From positions 1-52,933 of IMG/VR virus record IMGVR_UViG_3300048818_000172: 52,933 nucleotides of DNA; one strand, written 5' to 3'. Under the pieces are notes generated by a model. It was not told where the DNA came from. It saw only the letters and a program-made list of their open reading frames with translations, and did no database searches. Below, one piece after another: positions 2,426-9,288 of the stretch (position 1 is the stretch's first letter; each line of letters opens with the position of its first letter). This DNA comes from a virus. The position numbers and the translations under genes were made by a program.

Positions 2426-2592
2426 GGAACGAGCTGCGGATGATCTTGTCCAGAGACCAACTAACAAAGCTCATCAATGATTTGATGGACCTGTTGGCCG
2501 GCGAGTGCGATGCGGTTCGCCTTGCTTCCGACGATCCGTTGGCCATGACCACATTGTTAGAGCTGGGGGAGGTTTCCCATGCTGTACCATGA
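2422..2592 (+). CDS. Small helical protein between annealase and exonuclease
   Basis: It encodes 56 residues (VRNELRMILSRDQLTKLINDLMDLLAGECDAVRLASDDP...). The GTG at 2422 overlaps the ERF stop, and an ATG at 2440 is the alternative start. It also overlaps the exonuclease start at 2579, so the three genes form one tightly coupled unit. No family is recognised. Its location suggests a partner or modulator of the recombination pair. Confidence 0.6.
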   Translation: MRNELRMILSRDQLTKLINDLMDLLAGECDAVRLASDDPLAMTTLLELGEVSHAVP

Positions 2593-3223
2593 CGTCGAAC
2601 AGGGATCTGAACTCTGGTTCCGTCTCCGCCTGGGCGTGCCCACGGCCAGCAATTTCGACATGATCCTCACGCCGGCCAAGGGCGAGCCGAGCACCTCGCA
2701 GCGCAAGTTCATCGCGCAGCTCATCGGCGAGACCCTGGCCGCGTTCCTCCCGGCCAACGCGCCCAACTACACCTCGCGGGCGATAGATTGGGGCCAGCAG
2801 ACGGAGAAGGAGGCCAGGGACTTCTACGGCATGGAACGCGACACCGACGTTTCCAATGGCGGATTCGTCGAGACAGACGACAAGCGATTCGGTTGCTCGC
2901 CGGATGGATTGATCGGACTTCAACAACTCCCGTCTGGCCTATGGGTCTGCAAGGGCGGCCTGGAACTGAAATGCCCACAGCCCACAACGCACGCCGGCTA
3001 CCTGATGGACGGGCAGAAAGTGCCGCACGAGTACCGGTGGCAAGTGCAAGGCGAGCTGGTCGTGACCGGCGCCCGCTGGTGGGATTTCATGAGCTACTGC
3101 CCAGGCCTTCCGCCGCTCCTCGTGCGCGTCGAGCCCAACGGCGATACCGACCGTTTGCGCGTGGCCCTGGACCGGTTCCACGGCAACTATGTGTTGGCGC
3201 TGGCCAAGGTCAGGGGGAAATAA
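2579..3223 (+). CDS. YqaJ/lambda-exonuclease-type 5'-3' exonuclease
   Basis: The 214-residue product matches the family's usual length. The family core is visible: QGSELWFRLRLGVPTASNFD near the N-terminus, a central helix pair, CSPDGLIG (catalytic Asp), then LELKCPQPTTHAGYL (E-x-K motif) and QVQGELVVTGARWWDFMSY. These are the metal-binding and bridging residues of PD-(D/E)XK nucleases. The enzyme is expected to resect dsDNA ends, producing ssDNA for the ERF protein encoded just upstream. The start at 2579 follows a GGGGGAGG ribosome-binding site. Confidence 0.92.
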   Translation: MLYHDVEQGSELWFRLRLGVPTASNFDMILTPAKGEPSTSQRKFIAQLIGETLAAFLPANAPNYTSRAIDWGQQTEKEARDFYGMERDTDVSNGGFVETDDKRFGCSPDGLIGLQQLPSGLWVCKGGLELKCPQPTTHAGYLMDGQKVPHEYRWQVQGELVVTGARWWDFMSYCPGLPPLLVRVEPNGDTDRLRVALDRFHGNYVLALAKVRGK

Positions 3224-3224
3224 C

Positions 3225-3464
3225 ATGCGCCACCTCTACGAACTGGAGCGGACCATCAACGACGAGTTGAACCGCTACACGGTGGACTGCGACGGCGACC
3301 CGGACGATTGCGACTTCACCGCGAAGATGGCCCGGACGATCTACGACGCCCATATCAAGCCGCTTGTGCATGCGCTGACCGAGGCGGCCCAGGCCTGCAA
3401 TGAACCCAATTCCCATCTCTGCCGACTTCTCAACGCGGCCATTGCCAAAGCCGAGGGCCGGTAG
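3225..3464 (+). CDS. Small acidic helical protein, unknown
   Basis: It encodes 79 residues (MRHLYELERTINDELNRYTVDCDGDPDDCDFTAKMARTIYDAHIKP...). It is predicted to be mostly helical with an acidic Cys-containing loop. The ATG follows the exonuclease stop after one base, so it is probably co-transcribed. No family is recognised. Bases 3465-3604 after it carry no gene that I can support. Confidence 0.65.
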   Translation: MRHLYELERTINDELNRYTVDCDGDPDDCDFTAKMARTIYDAHIKPLVHALTEAAQACNEPNSHLCRLLNAAIAKAEGR

Positions 3465-3604
3465 TACACTTCTTCCTCAGACCACTTGCCCGGTCTCCCC
3501 GACACCGAATACATTCGCTCCACGCCGGCCTCCCCAGGGTCACTTCTACCGGGCAAGGGTCTTGACCTTGACGGGGGCCGGCTGGTTTTCTGCGGAGCCG
3601 CTCG

Positions 3605-3919
3605 ATGCGCAAAGAAACTCTGGAAGAAATGACAGCCAAATGCGCTGAACTGTACCGCCAATCTCTCTTGCATTCAGCCCGAATCCTTCCGCGCGTCACG
3701 GAATTAGGCAAGCACCTGCTGACTATTCGAGAGGAAGGCCCTCCCCGGGATTTCTTCCAGACCGCCGAAGAGGAAATGGGTATGCACCCCATGCAGGCGG
3801 CGATACTGCTGCTCGCTGGCTGCATTGAGCTAAGCCCCGAAGAGTGGAACACCCTTCAGCTTTGCGCGGCGCTGGCCGAGGCCGAGGCTAAGCGATTCGA
3901 GAAGGAGGATGGGCTGTGA
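3605..3919 (+). CDS. Hypothetical helical protein
   Basis: The 104-residue product (MRKETLEEMTAKCAELYRQSLLHSARILPRVTELGKHLL...) is predicted to be all-helical with an acidic C-terminus (LAEAEAKRFEKEDGL). The start follows a gap of about 140 bases. The stop overlaps the GTG of the next gene (GTGA at 3916-3919), indicating coupling. The function is unknown. Confidence 0.65.
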   Translation: MRKETLEEMTAKCAELYRQSLLHSARILPRVTELGKHLLTIREEGPPRDFFQTAEEEMGMHPMQAAILLLAGCIELSPEEWNTLQLCAALAEAEAKRFEKEDGL

Positions 3920-4761
3920 AAAACGATCCTCTTGACATCAACCCGCCGGCAATCGTCCGGCAGGCCGAGACTCCCGACGCCGAGCTGGTCGGCAAGATCA
4001 AGGATGCCTGGAAACGATTCCAGACCGCAGGCCGCTCAATGTGCACCGAGGGCGAGACCATAGGCGAGTGGCTAGAAGCCTGGAAAAAGCGAAATCCAGG
4101 CAAGCTCAAGGCGTTCGTCGCCGAATATCTGCCGTTCAGCTACAGATGGGCCAAGAAACTTTGCCACACGGCAAGACAGGCCATTGCAGATAGGGAAAAC
4201 CCGGAGGAACTTAGTTCCCCTGAGCGCCTTGAACGAAACCTCAAGATTCTGAACGAAGATATTCCAGAGAAAGAGGTTGAGCCGACCGCACCCCCCGCGC
4301 CCGGCAGTGTCGACGCAGCCCTTGCACCGGCCGGAGAGGGGCCACCTCGCGAGCCGGGCGACATGACGCCGGAGGAGGCCGAACAGGACAGAATCGAAAC
4401 GGCGTTGAAGGCCGCGATCAAGAAAGCGCTGGACAAGTGCAAGCGCTGCTCGCGCATCGGCGTGGCCAGCTGCAAAAGCTGCAAGGCCAGGGTCTACGAC
4501 CTGATGCACCCCACGGAGACGCCGGACACCTCGAAGCCGAAGAAGCCGAAGAACACTAGCGGCCAGGCGCTCTTCCTCTGGCCGCAGTATCACAAGGTTT
4601 TCGGCGAGACCGTGCGCGCGGTCGACACGATTTGCAACGGATACGGCATCCCAAGAGTCAACTCCGAGGCCGAAGCGCTGCGTACCGAAATTCGAGCATG
4701 GAACATTCGGTTCAAGGCGTGGACGGCCAAGGTTACGAAGCAAAAACCACCCGAGGCTTGA
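3916..4761 (+). CDS. Hypothetical protein with a central four-cysteine zinc-ribbon-like motif
   Basis: It encodes 281 residues in three parts. The helical N-terminus (about 1-95) holds FSYRWAKKLCHTARQ, reminiscent of small DNA-binding proteins. A Pro/Glu-rich linker follows (about 118-155). The C-terminal part has CKRCSRIGVASCKSC (C-x2-C-x7-C-x2-C) and a WPQYHKVFGETVRAVDTICNGYG segment. The cysteines suggest a structural zinc. It lies between the recombination pair and the helicase, so a DNA-related role is plausible but unproven. The GTG start is set by overlap with the preceding stop. Confidence 0.65.
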   Translation: MKNDPLDINPPAIVRQAETPDAELVGKIKDAWKRFQTAGRSMCTEGETIGEWLEAWKKRNPGKLKAFVAEYLPFSYRWAKKLCHTARQAIADRENPEELSSPERLERNLKILNEDIPEKEVEPTAPPAPGSVDAALAPAGEGPPREPGDMTPEEAEQDRIETALKAAIKKALDKCKRCSRIGVASCKSCKARVYDLMHPTETPDTSKPKKPKNTSGQALFLWPQYHKVFGETVRAVDTICNGYGIPRVNSEAEALRTEIRAWNIRFKAWTAKVTKQKPPEA

Positions 4762-4762
4762 G

Positions 4763-4990
4763 ATGAAAACGAAACTTTCTCCGCAAGATGCCTGGTGGCG
4801 GGTCTATGACGAAGCCTTTGCAAAGGACTGGACTTTTCGCCGCGCGGCTTCGTGGTTTTTCTGCATGTACCATTACTGGCCGCCCACGAACCTTGCGGGC
4901 ATGCCGCGGCGGGAGTTCGACTGGTATCGCAGTGTTCAGGACGTTCCGCTAACCGCGTTAATCGCTTACCGAGAATGCCCAGGAGCGTAG
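4763..4990 (+). CDS. Small protein sharing a C-terminal module with the adjacent helicase
   Basis: This is a 75-residue protein. Residues 24-67 line up with residues 474-518 of the helicase encoded immediately downstream. Shared positions are TFR, A, Y, WP, T, MP, EFD, YR, V and DVP, with LI at the end. The two are therefore probably built from the same ancestral module, by partial duplication or by splitting of a gene. It may bind the helicase or the same ligand. It lies 1 base after the preceding stop and its own stop abuts the helicase ATG. Confidence 0.7.
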   Translation: MKTKLSPQDAWWRVYDEAFAKDWTFRRAASWFFCMYHYWPPTNLAGMPRREFDWYRSVQDVPLTALIAYRECPGA

Positions 4991-6553
4991 ATGGATCGCC
5001 CACGCTGGCCCCTGCAACTGTTCGGTCACCGCGCCGTGCTCGAAGCATTCGACGCCGGCCACCGGACCGTTTGCCTCACCTCGCCGACCGGCACGGGCAA
5101 AACCGTGATGGTGGAGGACATCCTGAAAGACTTCTTGCACCTCGGCAAGCGGTGCGTGCTTTACACCAACCGAAAGATGCTCATTGACCAGCTCAGCAAG
5201 TCGCTCGACGAGGCCGGCATTCCGCACGGGGTTCGCTCGCCCGACCATGACGACGAGCGGCACCTCGACATGCAAATCAGCTCCATCCCCACGGAGGTCA
5301 AGCGCTGGAACAAGCCAGGGTGGGACCTGCACGACGCGCACCTGGCCGTGATCGACGAAGCCCATTTGAACACGGGCGAGGGGGCCCGCAAGATACGCGA
5401 TCGGCACCTCGAAGCCGGCTGCCTCATCCTCGGCCCCACGGCAACGCCGATCGACATGGGCGACTTCTACGAGCACCTCGTCGTGGCCGGCCGCGTCTCT
5501 GACGGCCGCGCCTGCGGGGCCCTGGTGCTCGCCCATCACTACGCGGCCGACGAGCCGGATTGGGCGGAGTTCAACAAGCTCAAGAAGGGCAGGAAGATCG
5601 ACGAGGAGGCCGACAGCATCAGCGCAGCCGAGGCCGACAGCGCGATTATGAGGCCCGGCATCTTCGGCCGCGTGATCGACAACTACCGCCGGTTCAACCC
5701 CGAGCAGCGGCCGACGATCCTATTCGGTCCCAACGTGGCCGGCAGTCTGGCGTTCGCCGAGCAATTCACCGCAGCCGGGATCGAGGCGGTGCATATCGAC
5801 GGCGACGACGTGTGGATCCGCGGCCGGCTCTACAAGAGCAGCCAAACGACCAGGGCAAAGGTATTGGAGGCAAGCAAAGATGGACGTGTCAAAGTCATCT
5901 GTAACCGGTTCGTCCTTCGAGAAGGCGTTGACGCTCCCTGGCTCAGTCATGGCATCTTCGCCACTATCTTCGGTTCGCTTTCGAGTTACCTCCAAAGTGG
6001 TGGGCGCCTTCTCCGTAGTAACGGTGGAGTGGCTGGAGTCACCATTCAAGACCACGGCGGCCATTGGTGGCGATTCGGGAGCCTGAATATCGATCGCCAG
6101 TGGATGCTGGGCCTCACCAATTCGAGCATGTTGGGGATGCACGGCGACCGGTCTCGCAAGCTGCCGAGGCCCAGCCCCTGCCCGCAATGCAAGGAAGTTC
6201 AAATCTGGAAATCGGCCACCTGCCAATTCTGCGGCTGGGTCGCCAAGCCGGGCGCCAAGGTCTCACGGCCGGTCGTGCAGACGAACGGCGAGCTGCGGGA
6301 GATGGTCGGCGACGTGTGGAAGCCGCGGCGCGTCTACACGCGACCGGACGGGCCGGCGAAATGGAAACGCATGTATTACCGGTCGCGGCAACCCAAGGCA
6401 AAGGGCCGGACGTTCCGCGCGGCCATGGCGCTCTACGCCACAGAAAACTACTTCGCATGGCCGGACACGCGTTGGCCGTACATGCCCATCGACGAGTTCG
6501 ACCGATACCGGCGAGTGATCGACGTTCCCGAGGACTGCCTGATTCAAGAATAG
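4991..6553 (+). CDS. SF2 (DEAD/DEAH-type) helicase with zinc ribbon and C-terminal add-on
   Basis: The protein has 520 residues. Walker A SPTGTGKT is at 31-38, the DEAH box (VIDEAH) at 120-125, motif III-like GPTATP at 148-153, and motif VI-like QSGGRLLRS at 335-343. This is the RecQ/UvrB-like SF2 plan often found in phage replication modules, sometimes as the only helicase. A CxxC...CxxC zinc ribbon (397-414) follows the helicase lobes, then a C-terminal module (474-518) that also occurs in the small gene at 4763. It is expected to unwind DNA during replication or recombination. The ATG at 4991 directly follows the preceding stop. Confidence 0.9.
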   Translation: MDRPRWPLQLFGHRAVLEAFDAGHRTVCLTSPTGTGKTVMVEDILKDFLHLGKRCVLYTNRKMLIDQLSKSLDEAGIPHGVRSPDHDDERHLDMQISSIPTEVKRWNKPGWDLHDAHLAVIDEAHLNTGEGARKIRDRHLEAGCLILGPTATPIDMGDFYEHLVVAGRVSDGRACGALVLAHHYAADEPDWAEFNKLKKGRKIDEEADSISAAEADSAIMRPGIFGRVIDNYRRFNPEQRPTILFGPNVAGSLAFAEQFTAAGIEAVHIDGDDVWIRGRLYKSSQTTRAKVLEASKDGRVKVICNRFVLREGVDAPWLSHGIFATIFGSLSSYLQSGGRLLRSNGGVAGVTIQDHGGHWWRFGSLNIDRQWMLGLTNSSMLGMHGDRSRKLPRPSPCPQCKEVQIWKSATCQFCGWVAKPGAKVSRPVVQTNGELREMVGDVWKPRRVYTRPDGPAKWKRMYYRSRQPKAKGRTFRAAMALYATENYFAWPDTRWPYMPIDEFDRYRRVIDVPEDCLIQE

Positions 6554-6581
6554 TTCGCCCTTTCACCCCAGGAGTAAGAAA

Positions 6582-6893
6582 ATGGCCCGCAGAAAGAAAC
6601 CAGCAGATGAGCCGGACATGGAGCAAGGCTACATCCCCGGCACGGAGCCTCCCCGAGTTCCTGCCGTCGACCAGGCGGCCAAGCTGTACCACAAGGTGAT
6701 GCTCGATCGCGTCGAGCTGACCAAGGAGGAACACGAGGCGATGGCCAACCTCGTCGAGAAGATGATCGAAGCCGGCCTGCAATACTACGAGACCAAACAG
6801 GGGCTCGAAGTCAAGCTGACCAGCAAGTCCAAATGCACAGTGAAGCCGGCCAAGAAGAAGCATCCGACCGACGACAACGAGAGCACGAGCTGA
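6582..6893 (+). CDS. Conserved small phage protein (GYIPGTEPP type)
   Basis: It encodes 103 residues: a basic N-terminus (MARRKKPADEPD), the segment MEQGYIPGTEPPRVPAVDQAAKLYHKVMLDRVELTKEE, a helix, and a Lys-rich tail. Proteins with this GYIPGTEPP...ID.AA pattern are widespread in phage recombination and replication clusters, without a known activity. An AGGAG-type site precedes the ATG. The spacing suggests it is in the helicase operon. Confidence 0.75.
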   Translation: MARRKKPADEPDMEQGYIPGTEPPRVPAVDQAAKLYHKVMLDRVELTKEEHEAMANLVEKMIEAGLQYYETKQGLEVKLTSKSKCTVKPAKKKHPTDDNESTS

Positions 6894-7019
6894 ACCATGC
6901 AAAGCTGGATACCAACAGAGAGGGCCCTGCCAAAAGAGGGCCGAGTGGTGGAGACGAAGGTGGACGGCCAGCCCGGTTCCTTCCTTCGCTTGAAGCTGGT
7001 CGGCCCCCTCTGGCTGTTG

Positions 7020-7031
7020 CCCTGCGGAGGG
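7020..7031 (+). repeat. 12-bp direct repeat, left (target duplication)
   Basis: CCCTGCGGAGGG lies just outside the left inverted repeat and encodes PCGG in the interrupted gene. It is identical to 8511-8522. Confidence 0.85.
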
Positions 7032-7053
7032 TAATTACATACTTGGCTCACCA
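7032..7053 (+). repeat. 22-bp terminal inverted repeat, left
   Basis: It begins TAATTACATACTTGGC and ends TCACCA. Its TAA terminates the split DUF551 frame. The probable ribosome-binding site of the methyltransferase (GAAGGAAA) lies just inside it. Confidence 0.88.
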
Positions 7054-7073
7054 CGCGAAGGAAATCTGAACCG

Positions 7074-8507
7074 ATGAAGTCGACGCTTCAAGAAGCCGAA
7101 TGGTCCGGCTGCTACGACGACAACTGGAACGGCTTCATTGTTCCAACTGCCTTCGCCCATCCCGCCAAGTTTGCGCGCGGCCTGGTCACGCGCATCTACC
7201 GGCACATGCTGGAGCAAGGCTGGATCAAGCCGGGCGACGTATGCTTCGATCCGTTTGGTGGTATCGGAACCGGCGGCATTGTCGCGGCCTCGCTGGGCCT
7301 GCAATGGGTCGGCTGCGAATTAGAGGAGCGCTTTTACAATCTGGCCCTGGAGAACTTCGCGCTCCACCGCCGCACATGGGAGGCCATGGGCGACCCGCTG
7401 CCGGTCATTCTGCACGGAGATTCGCGGAACGCAGCGGCGCTGGTGCGGGCGCATGGCGTGGTTTCATCGCCGCCGTTCCTTGACGCCAGAAACGGCACCA
7501 CGGCGTCGACGTCCAGCAACGGTGGTCCTTGCACGGATCGAATCGCCAGCGTCGCCAATGGGGACTTGCTGGGCGACACTCCCGGCCAGCTTGGCGGGAT
7601 GCCCACTGGCGACCTTGACGCAGCGATTAGCTCGCCGCCTTACGCGGAAACTGCCACCAACGGATCTCGCGAAAACCGCGCGGCGAATCTCGACAAGGCC
7701 GGTATCGACAGCAAGGCGTGGCTCGGCAACGCCCGATGCACGCAAGGAAGGTCGGAAGGATACGGCGCGGCCCCCGGCCAGCTCGGGGCCATGAAGGAAG
7801 GCGCGATCGACAGCGTCTTGAGCAGCCCGCCCTACAGCGAGAGCCTTCGTAAAGGAGAGCCGACCGATCCCGTCAAATCGCACGCAAACCAAGCCCGGGA
7901 CATCATGGCCGGAAAAGGCATCGCGTCACATTACGGCGAAACTCCCGGCCAATTGGGGAACCTCAAGGAAGGGGATGTTGACGCGGCAGTGTCATCGCCT
8001 CCGTTTGAGGACAGCGAAGCCATTGCGCCGCGAGCGAATGGCCTGATGGAAAAGGTTGCCAAGAAACACGGCAACAACAAAGCGCGGCAGGAATCGTGCG
8101 ACATGCAGGATTACGGGCGCAGCGCTGGGCAACTCGGCAACGACACCGGCGAAACCTTCTGGGCCGCCGCGCGCCAGATCGTCGAGCAGACCTACCTCTT
8201 GCTCAAGCCCGGCGGCATCGCGGCCTGGGTCTGCAAGGATTACGTCAAGGCCGGCAAGCGTGTCCCGTTCTGCGACAACTGGGCGCGGCTCTGCGAGGCG
8301 TGCGGCTTCGAGGTCATCCAGCGCGTCCGCGCGATGCTGGTCAAGGAAGAAACGCACGCCGGCCTGTTCGGCGCGGTGACGAAGAAGACGGAGAGGAAGT
8401 CGTTTTTCCGGCGGCTGCACGAGCGGAAGCCGGGCGCGGTGCGGATTGATTGGGAGGAAGTTTTGTTCATGCGGAAGCGGGAGAGCCATGGTGAGCCAAG
8501 TATGTAA
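7074..8507 (+). CDS. DNA methyltransferase with four repeated SSPP[FY] motifs
   Basis: This 477-residue protein looks like an amino-methylating DNA methyltransferase. The SAM-binding motif CFDPFGGIGTG is at 57-67, followed by an acidic residue (VGCELEE, 79-85). The catalytic-type motif SSPP[FY] occurs four times: 131-135, 186-190, 250-254 and 307-311. The last three are each preceded by a PGQLG...G...D unit (GQLG at 171, 235 and 292, with a fourth at 352 lacking SPP). The C-terminal third (WAAARQIVEQTYLLLKPGGIAAWV) is the usual fold end. It probably modifies adenine-N6 or cytosine-N4, perhaps against restriction. The last codons and TAA lie inside the right inverted repeat. Confidence 0.85.
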   Translation: MKSTLQEAEWSGCYDDNWNGFIVPTAFAHPAKFARGLVTRIYRHMLEQGWIKPGDVCFDPFGGIGTGGIVAASLGLQWVGCELEERFYNLALENFALHRRTWEAMGDPLPVILHGDSRNAAALVRAHGVVSSPPFLDARNGTTASTSSNGGPCTDRIASVANGDLLGDTPGQLGGMPTGDLDAAISSPPYAETATNGSRENRAANLDKAGIDSKAWLGNARCTQGRSEGYGAAPGQLGAMKEGAIDSVLSSPPYSESLRKGEPTDPVKSHANQARDIMAGKGIASHYGETPGQLGNLKEGDVDAAVSSPPFEDSEAIAPRANGLMEKVAKKHGNNKARQESCDMQDYGRSAGQLGNDTGETFWAAARQIVEQTYLLLKPGGIAAWVCKDYVKAGKRVPFCDNWARLCEACGFEVIQRVRAMLVKEETHAGLFGAVTKKTERKSFFRRLHERKPGAVRIDWEEVLFMRKRESHGEPSM

Positions 8508-8510
8508 TTA
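8489..8510 (+). repeat. 22-bp terminal inverted repeat, right
   Basis: Exact reverse complement of 7032-7053. It encodes the end of the methyltransferase (HGEPSM and its TAA). Confidence 0.88.
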
Positions 8511-8522
8511 CCCTGCGGAGGG
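8511..8522 (+). repeat. 12-bp direct repeat, right (target duplication)
   Basis: CCCTGCGGAGGG, identical to 7020-7031. The sequence after it continues the DUF551-like frame (FRVFYLPTHW). Confidence 0.85.
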
Positions 8523-8576
8523 TTCCGAGTGTTCTACCTGCCGACACACTGGCGGCCGGTCAAACGGGAGTAACCA

Positions 8577-8822: not shown

Positions 8823-9109
8823 TGGCCGAGACCGCTTACGAAGCCCTGGCCGAGACCCGCAAGCTGCTCGCCGCTGCCGAGGCAAGGGCCAAGGCAGCGG
8901 AGCAGCTGCTGTACGACCGGTACATGGTCGCCATCCTCGGCGGCCTGGCGATCCGCTACGAGTTCGCCACCGGGCCCGCGACGCTCATGGAGCACGCGGA
9001 GAGGTTGACCCTGGCCGCGCTCAAGGTGAGGAAGCGGTGGCTGTCTGGTGAATCCCCCAACGTGGCGCCGGTGGCTCTTCTGCCGGCCAAGAAAGAAGCG
9101 AAGCCGTGA
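8822..9109 (+). CDS. Hypothetical helical protein
   Basis: The product has 95 residues. The N-terminal half (MAETAYEALAETRKLLAAAEARAKAAEQLLYDRYM) is an Ala/Glu-rich amphipathic helix that could form a coiled coil, followed by GGLAIRYEFATGPATLMEHAERL. The ATG overlaps the preceding stop (TAATG), and its own stop overlaps the GTG of the next gene. The function is unknown. Confidence 0.6.
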   Translation: MAETAYEALAETRKLLAAAEARAKAAEQLLYDRYMVAILGGLAIRYEFATGPATLMEHAERLTLAALKVRKRWLSGESPNVAPVALLPAKKEAKP

Positions 9110-9288
9110 AATTCGTCCAGACGTGGCAAGAGGCAAAAGTCTACCAAAACCGTGACGCTGCCTACCGCGCGGCCCGCAAAGCATCGCGTTCATGCGATCG
9201 CACCGCGAGGCTGATAAGTGGTGCCGGAAATCTCGGGGACGGCAGGTACGTGGCCTATGTTTTTGGGAGAGGATGGATCGGCAAATGA
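9106..9288 (+). CDS. Small basic protein, unknown
   Basis: It encodes 60 residues (MKFVQTWQEAKVYQNRDAAYRAARKASRSCDRT...RYVAYVFGRGWIGK) from a GTG that overlaps the previous stop. It is basic with a beta-rich C-terminus. No family is recognised. Confidence 0.5.
   Translation: MKFVQTWQEAKVYQNRDAAYRAARKASRSCDRTARLISGAGNLGDGRYVAYVFGRGWIGK

Follow-up and report, generated by a model that had tools for sequence, protein, structure and literature searches.

The window, the whole stretch of 52,933 nucleotides of viral DNA analysed here (record G000), contains a unit of 1483 bp at 7030-8512 whose inverted ends are perfect over 24 nt. The unit carries a single gene, predicted to encode a DNA methyltransferase, and splits a small phage gene. 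The features of the locus are as follows.

6897-7029, plus strand: 5' part of the interrupted phage gene, including the left duplication (from ORF 6897-7034, the joined frame and the homologue in contig L006)
7022-7029, no strand: left target-site duplication, CTGCGGAG, 8 bp (length taken from relatives with exact 8-bp duplications)
7030-7053, plus strand: left terminal inverted repeat, GGTAATTACATACTTGGCTCACCA, 24 nt
7074-8507, plus strand: DNA methyltransferase gene, 477 aa, the sole cargo (from PF01555, PHROG and homologues)
8489-8512, minus strand: right terminal inverted repeat, 24 nt, a perfect inverted copy of the left
8513-8520, no strand: right target-site duplication, CTGCGGAG, 8 bp
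8521-8573, plus strand: 3' part of the interrupted gene, ending PTHWRPVKRE (from a gap-free junction alignment with L006)

Boundaries and cargo of the unit

The original prediction had described 22-bp ends and a 12-bp duplication. The letters are exactly so: a perfect 22-nt inverted repeat lies at 7032-7053 and 8489-8510, and a 12-nt direct repeat, CCCTGCGGAGGG, stands immediately outside it at 7020-7031 and 8511-8522. The boundaries required correction. Because the 12-nt repeat is nearly palindromic (CCCT GCGG AGGG), the window copy alone allows any reading from 22-nt ends with a 12-nt duplication to 26-nt ends with a 4-nt duplication, and a plain inverted-repeat search indeed returned a perfect repeat of 26 nt, spanning 7028-8514. 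Relatives with unambiguous 8-bp duplications (see below) set the boundaries at 24-nt ends and an 8-bp duplication; this length is thus borrowed from them, the copy itself permitting 4-12 bp. A degenerate form of the 24-nt end is expected about 5e-8 times by chance in the window and was found twice, correctly paired, which excludes a chance origin of the paired ends. As the degenerate consensus was built from the window's own ends, independent support has to come from the relatives, with their paired ends, duplications and transposases.

The cargo is a complete gene whose 477-aa product matches N6_N4_Mtase (PF01555; E 7.1e-14, 52.7 bits against a curated cut-off of 26.7) and a PHROG DNA methyltransferase family (E 1.9e-14), bearing out its earlier identification as the only gene in the unit. 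The protein has four catalytic-type SPP[YF] motifs, each within a repeated module (..GQLG.x..G..DA..SSPPY). Homologues in viral contigs L004, L007, L061 and L068 belong to the same family of phage N4/N6 methyltransferases, are 44-50% identical and share the motifs, with three modules in L004 and L061 and two in L007 and L068, but none of their genes is flanked by IS1595-type ends of the kind described below. Methyltransferase genes of this kind are thus established in phages, and the one in this record has such ends on both sides. Its G+C content and third-position G+C are similar to those of neighbouring genes. An AlphaFold model had low confidence (mean pLDDT 52), and the best matches in a fold search of the PDB were SAM-dependent methyltransferases with low TM-scores, which is consistent with the predicted function rather than proof of it. 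A tblastn search with the protein against annotated phages and plasmids gave no match, and a related-locus search with a two-sequence methyltransferase alignment returned nothing further. In L004, the end of the contig (4161-4302) is a near-exact repeat of its own positions 2915-3058, directly after the methyltransferase gene, and represents a tandem duplication or an assembly artefact.

An empty site in a related virus

The related viral contig L006 carries an intact gene of 63 aa (8919-9110) at the place corresponding to the unit. Gene order is the same in both: a helicase (4991-6553 in the window, upstream of the unit and 79% identical to that of L006), a homologue of 105 aa for the window's 103-aa gene, the 63-aa ORF and a homologue of the window's 81-aa gene. 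In the occupied window, the 5' frame (ORF 6897-7034, 45 aa) ends within the left inverted repeat, at a stop at 7034. Deleting 7030-8520, that is, the unit and one repeat, yields an open frame of 61 aa, as had been foreseen for the fused flanks. The alignment of this joined frame with the L006 gene runs across the junction without gaps, and the region shows 70% identity over 736 aligned positions. The intact, uninterrupted gene in a syntenic contig thus shows, by comparison of the sequences, that the unit was inserted into a small phage gene. Empty sites had been proposed as something to look for, and this one counts in favour of insertion. The description of the interrupted gene as DUF551-like did not survive: neither the joined frame nor its L006 homologue matched DUF551 in Pfam at E values up to 10, although both end in PTHWRP. 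No Pfam family gave a convincing match to the gene, so we dropped the name.

IS1595-type ends and transposases in other viral contigs

The original prediction had also suggested searching for the 22-bp repeat elsewhere and for a transposase with matching ends. In IMG/VR, the exact 22-mer occurs nowhere else, and it was also absent from the 17-mer matches in genomes, so that no second site holding the exact window cassette was found in either. Five exact 16-mer matches in IMG/VR lacked inward-facing paired ends and were set aside as chance. Related ends, by contrast with the exact copy, are present in at least eight other viral contigs (consensus GGYAATNAYATACTTGRCKCAYCA). The path to these began with a 17-mer of the end, which had 11 matches in GTDB genomes, 10 of them apparently due to chance; the remaining one, in an Opitutae metagenome-assembled genome (L028), contains 21 of the 22 bases of the repeat, preceded by GGG, with a second, diverged copy nearby. 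A degenerate pattern derived from these sequences led to L033-L037, and the refined consensus to 14 stretches in all. We scanned the fetched loci for paired ends and flanking duplications, and found exact 8-bp duplications around six elements:

L035, 459-2420: ATTACGAG
L051, 592-2722: CAAATTTG
L052, 639-3222: CTAATTAG
L049, 3892-6740: CAAAGAAA
L055, outer element, 2559-6087: CAAATGAA
L055, nested unit, 4076-5603: ATCGGCTC

Elements in L037, L053 and L058 have the ends without matching duplications. The 24-nt end of the window unit is identical at 23 of 24 positions to the right end of the L051 element, and at 22 of 24 to both ends of the elements in L035 and L037; in L037, the inverted ends enclose a 323-aa transposase, lie 2160 bp from each other and adjoin phage terminase genes. 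The transposases of L035, L037 and L049 contain both DDE_Tnp_IS1595 (PF12762; E 1e-35 to 1e-38) and Zn_ribbon_IS1595 (PF12760), and those of L051 and L052 contain the PF12762 DDE domain. Among the aligned transposases, the five besides that of L035 share 54-75% identity with it. In several cases, reading frames are restored when the element is removed: in L035 a clamp-loader-like gene, in L051 a cysteine-rich frame and in L052 a further frame. The window unit therefore shares its terminal inverted repeats with elements that encode IS1595-type transposases, and CTGCGGAG stands on both of its sides as an 8-bp duplication, the length fixed by L035, L051, L052, L049 and L055. An affiliation with IS4/IS231, guessed from the 12-bp duplication, was given up in view of the 8-bp duplications and IS1595 transposases of the relatives. 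Together with the empty site in L006, these matching ends uphold transposition as the reading of the structure.

In line with the prediction that the unit encodes no transposase, no IS1595 transposase (PF12762) was detected in the window record or in the four viral records to which its helicase led. Against the window, tblastn with three transposases of the family produced nothing better than weak similarity within the element, where it coincides with the methyltransferase frame. The gene begins about 20 nt in from the left end, and its stop codon falls within the right end. The cargo thus fills the space between the ends and leaves no room for a transposase remnant. Lacking a transposase of its own, the unit would have to be moved by one made elsewhere.

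Sister units occur in a viral contig of 59 kb (G393, the source of L036 and L055), which has no PF12762 match yet contains at least three IS1595-type units clustered at L055 2559-7728. The outer element (2559-6087) carries a phage PAPS-reductase-like gene (E 2e-20) and a broken transposase. Nested within the IS1595 transposase frame is a transposase-less unit of 1528 bp (4076-5603) that has perfect duplications and contains a 207-aa minus-strand ORF; removal of this unit restores the N-terminal part of the transposase. A nested cassette with exact duplications of its own suggests that such cassettes transpose without a transposase of their own. The third unit (6119-7728, 1610 bp) has paired ends around a gene for a C5 cytosine methyltransferase (E 4e-27). 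It has no matching duplication, and the pattern is therefore less firmly supported by it.

The searches yielded several further observations. In L028 (665-1115), a pair of like-oriented IS1595-type ends 427 nt apart encloses a short N-terminal transposase remnant. A unit of only 176 bp with IS1595-type ends is present in L053. At L053 8658-9003, and also at L049 1974-2319, the frame for the C-terminal part of a C5 methyltransferase extends with its last codons into an IS1595-type end, much as the window gene has its stop within the right repeat. The autonomous IS1595-type element of L052 (639-3222) has adjacent DUF433 and DUF5615 genes, which we take to resemble a toxin-antitoxin pair. In Verrucomicrobiota, the ends were found in 2 of 384 genomes in a class-level search and in 3 of 388 in a phylum-level search, and are thus rare there. 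TIGR02996, tried as a marker of planctomycete hosts, gave no signal in the window or in controls.

A proposed transposase-less cassette and its relation to known elements

Collectively, these results make it very probable that 7030-8512 is a non-autonomous cassette with IS1595-type ends and a single methyltransferase passenger, inserted into a phage gene by a transposase supplied in trans. An IS1595-type DDE transposase, originating from the bacterial host or a second element within that cell, would recognize the 24-bp ends and insert the cassette into the small phage gene, duplicating the 8 bp CTGCGGAG and inactivating that gene; by the same means, the cassette may still be mobile. The gene could have been captured either when a passenger-carrying insertion sequence lost its transposase or when two ends came to flank it. 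The methyltransferase would modify phage DNA, for instance against host restriction. As the cassette is co-directional with the surrounding phage genes, it is probably expressed from the phage operon.

The original prediction had left two origins side by side, mobilization in trans or decay from a known insertion sequence, and the pair is well matched by the IS1595-type ends, the empty site and the absence of a transposase from the record. We consider the second unlikely in the form of an autonomous IS1595 element with a passenger (a transporter IS) that lost its transposase after arriving in the phage and is now a dead relic. Autonomous relatives in L035, L049 and L052 do carry passenger ORFs next to the transposase, and decayed transposases are common in the family (the outer element of L055, and L053), but the unit has no transposase remnant, its ends and duplications are perfect, its cargo fills the available space exactly, and the nested cassette of L055 is likewise transposase-less with exact duplications of its own.

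Two other explanations are highly improbable. Inverted repeats around a modification gene are common in invertible switches, and those of the window might function in phase variation, through site-specific inversion of the methyltransferase gene, and not in transposition, but the empty site in L006 and the flanking duplication show insertion, and matching ends flank IS1595 transposases at unrelated sites. Equally, we give almost no credence to the idea that template switching or misassembly created the repeats on either side of an ordinary phage gene for a methyltransferase: independent contigs also have this end sequence, there accompanied by IS1595 transposases and 8-bp duplications. The window record does contain a second exact inverted repeat, of 27 nt (1355-1381 and 2733-2759, about 1.35 kb apart), with its right arm in a YqaJ recombinase gene and its left arm in another coding frame. 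With no flanking duplications, it looks like a short inverted copy and not a transposon, indicating that short inverted copies arise by other routes too.

Beyond the non-autonomous cassette in the window, IS1595-type ends in phages might form a general system that repeatedly packages single DNA-modification or accessory genes, moved between phages by the transposases of neighbouring elements. Candidate cargoes are the N4/N6 methyltransferase of the window and, in G393, the C5 methyltransferase unit, the PAPS-reductase-like gene and others. We regard this broader idea as speculative and rather doubtful; if true, anti-restriction genes would be transposable units in their own right.

MIC231 of Bacillus derives from IS231, of the IS4 family. 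In PMC3129680, mobile insertion cassettes (MICs) such as MIC231 are described as having insertion sequence ends and no transposase, a cognate transposase being considered to activate them. The window unit resembles them in its IS-type ends, intact passenger gene and lack of a transposase, and differs from MIC231 in its IS1595-type ends, its methyltransferase and its location in a phage genome. With MITEs, it shares the absence of a transposase, IS-type inverted ends and a target duplication, but MITEs are short and have no coding cargo, whereas the unit spans 1483 bp and holds a 477-aa gene. Nor is it an autonomous insertion sequence, as it encodes no DDE_Tnp_IS1595 transposase.

IS1595-type elements have ends of about 25 bp, 8-bp duplications and documented passenger genes (PMC5704250; the duplications also in PMC10045372). 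MTnSag1 and tISCpe8 are members of this family with passenger genes (Siguier et al. 2009, as cited in PMC5704250). The window unit is like them in its inverted ends of about 25 bp, 8-bp duplication and passenger gene, and ends like its own flank IS1595-type transposases; unlike them, it has no transposase, carries a DNA methyltransferase instead of antibiotic resistance and resides in a phage. The earlier view that single-gene methyltransferase cassettes are not well described thus holds in part: MICs and IS1595 passenger genes are known, but the titles and abstracts of the searchable literature contained no precedent for an IS1595-type methyltransferase cassette in a phage.

Phages often gain methyltransferases by routes that are usually unclear, and transposon ends defined base for base, together with an empty site, provide a concrete and testable one. 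Insertion sequences are considered rare in phages (Leclercq and Cordaux 2011, as cited in PMC8136500), and IS1595-type elements and transposase-less cassettes, one of them nested, occur in these very genomes. As far as the searchable literature goes, the methyltransferase-only IS1595-type cassette in a phage, with its empty site and sister cassettes, is new.
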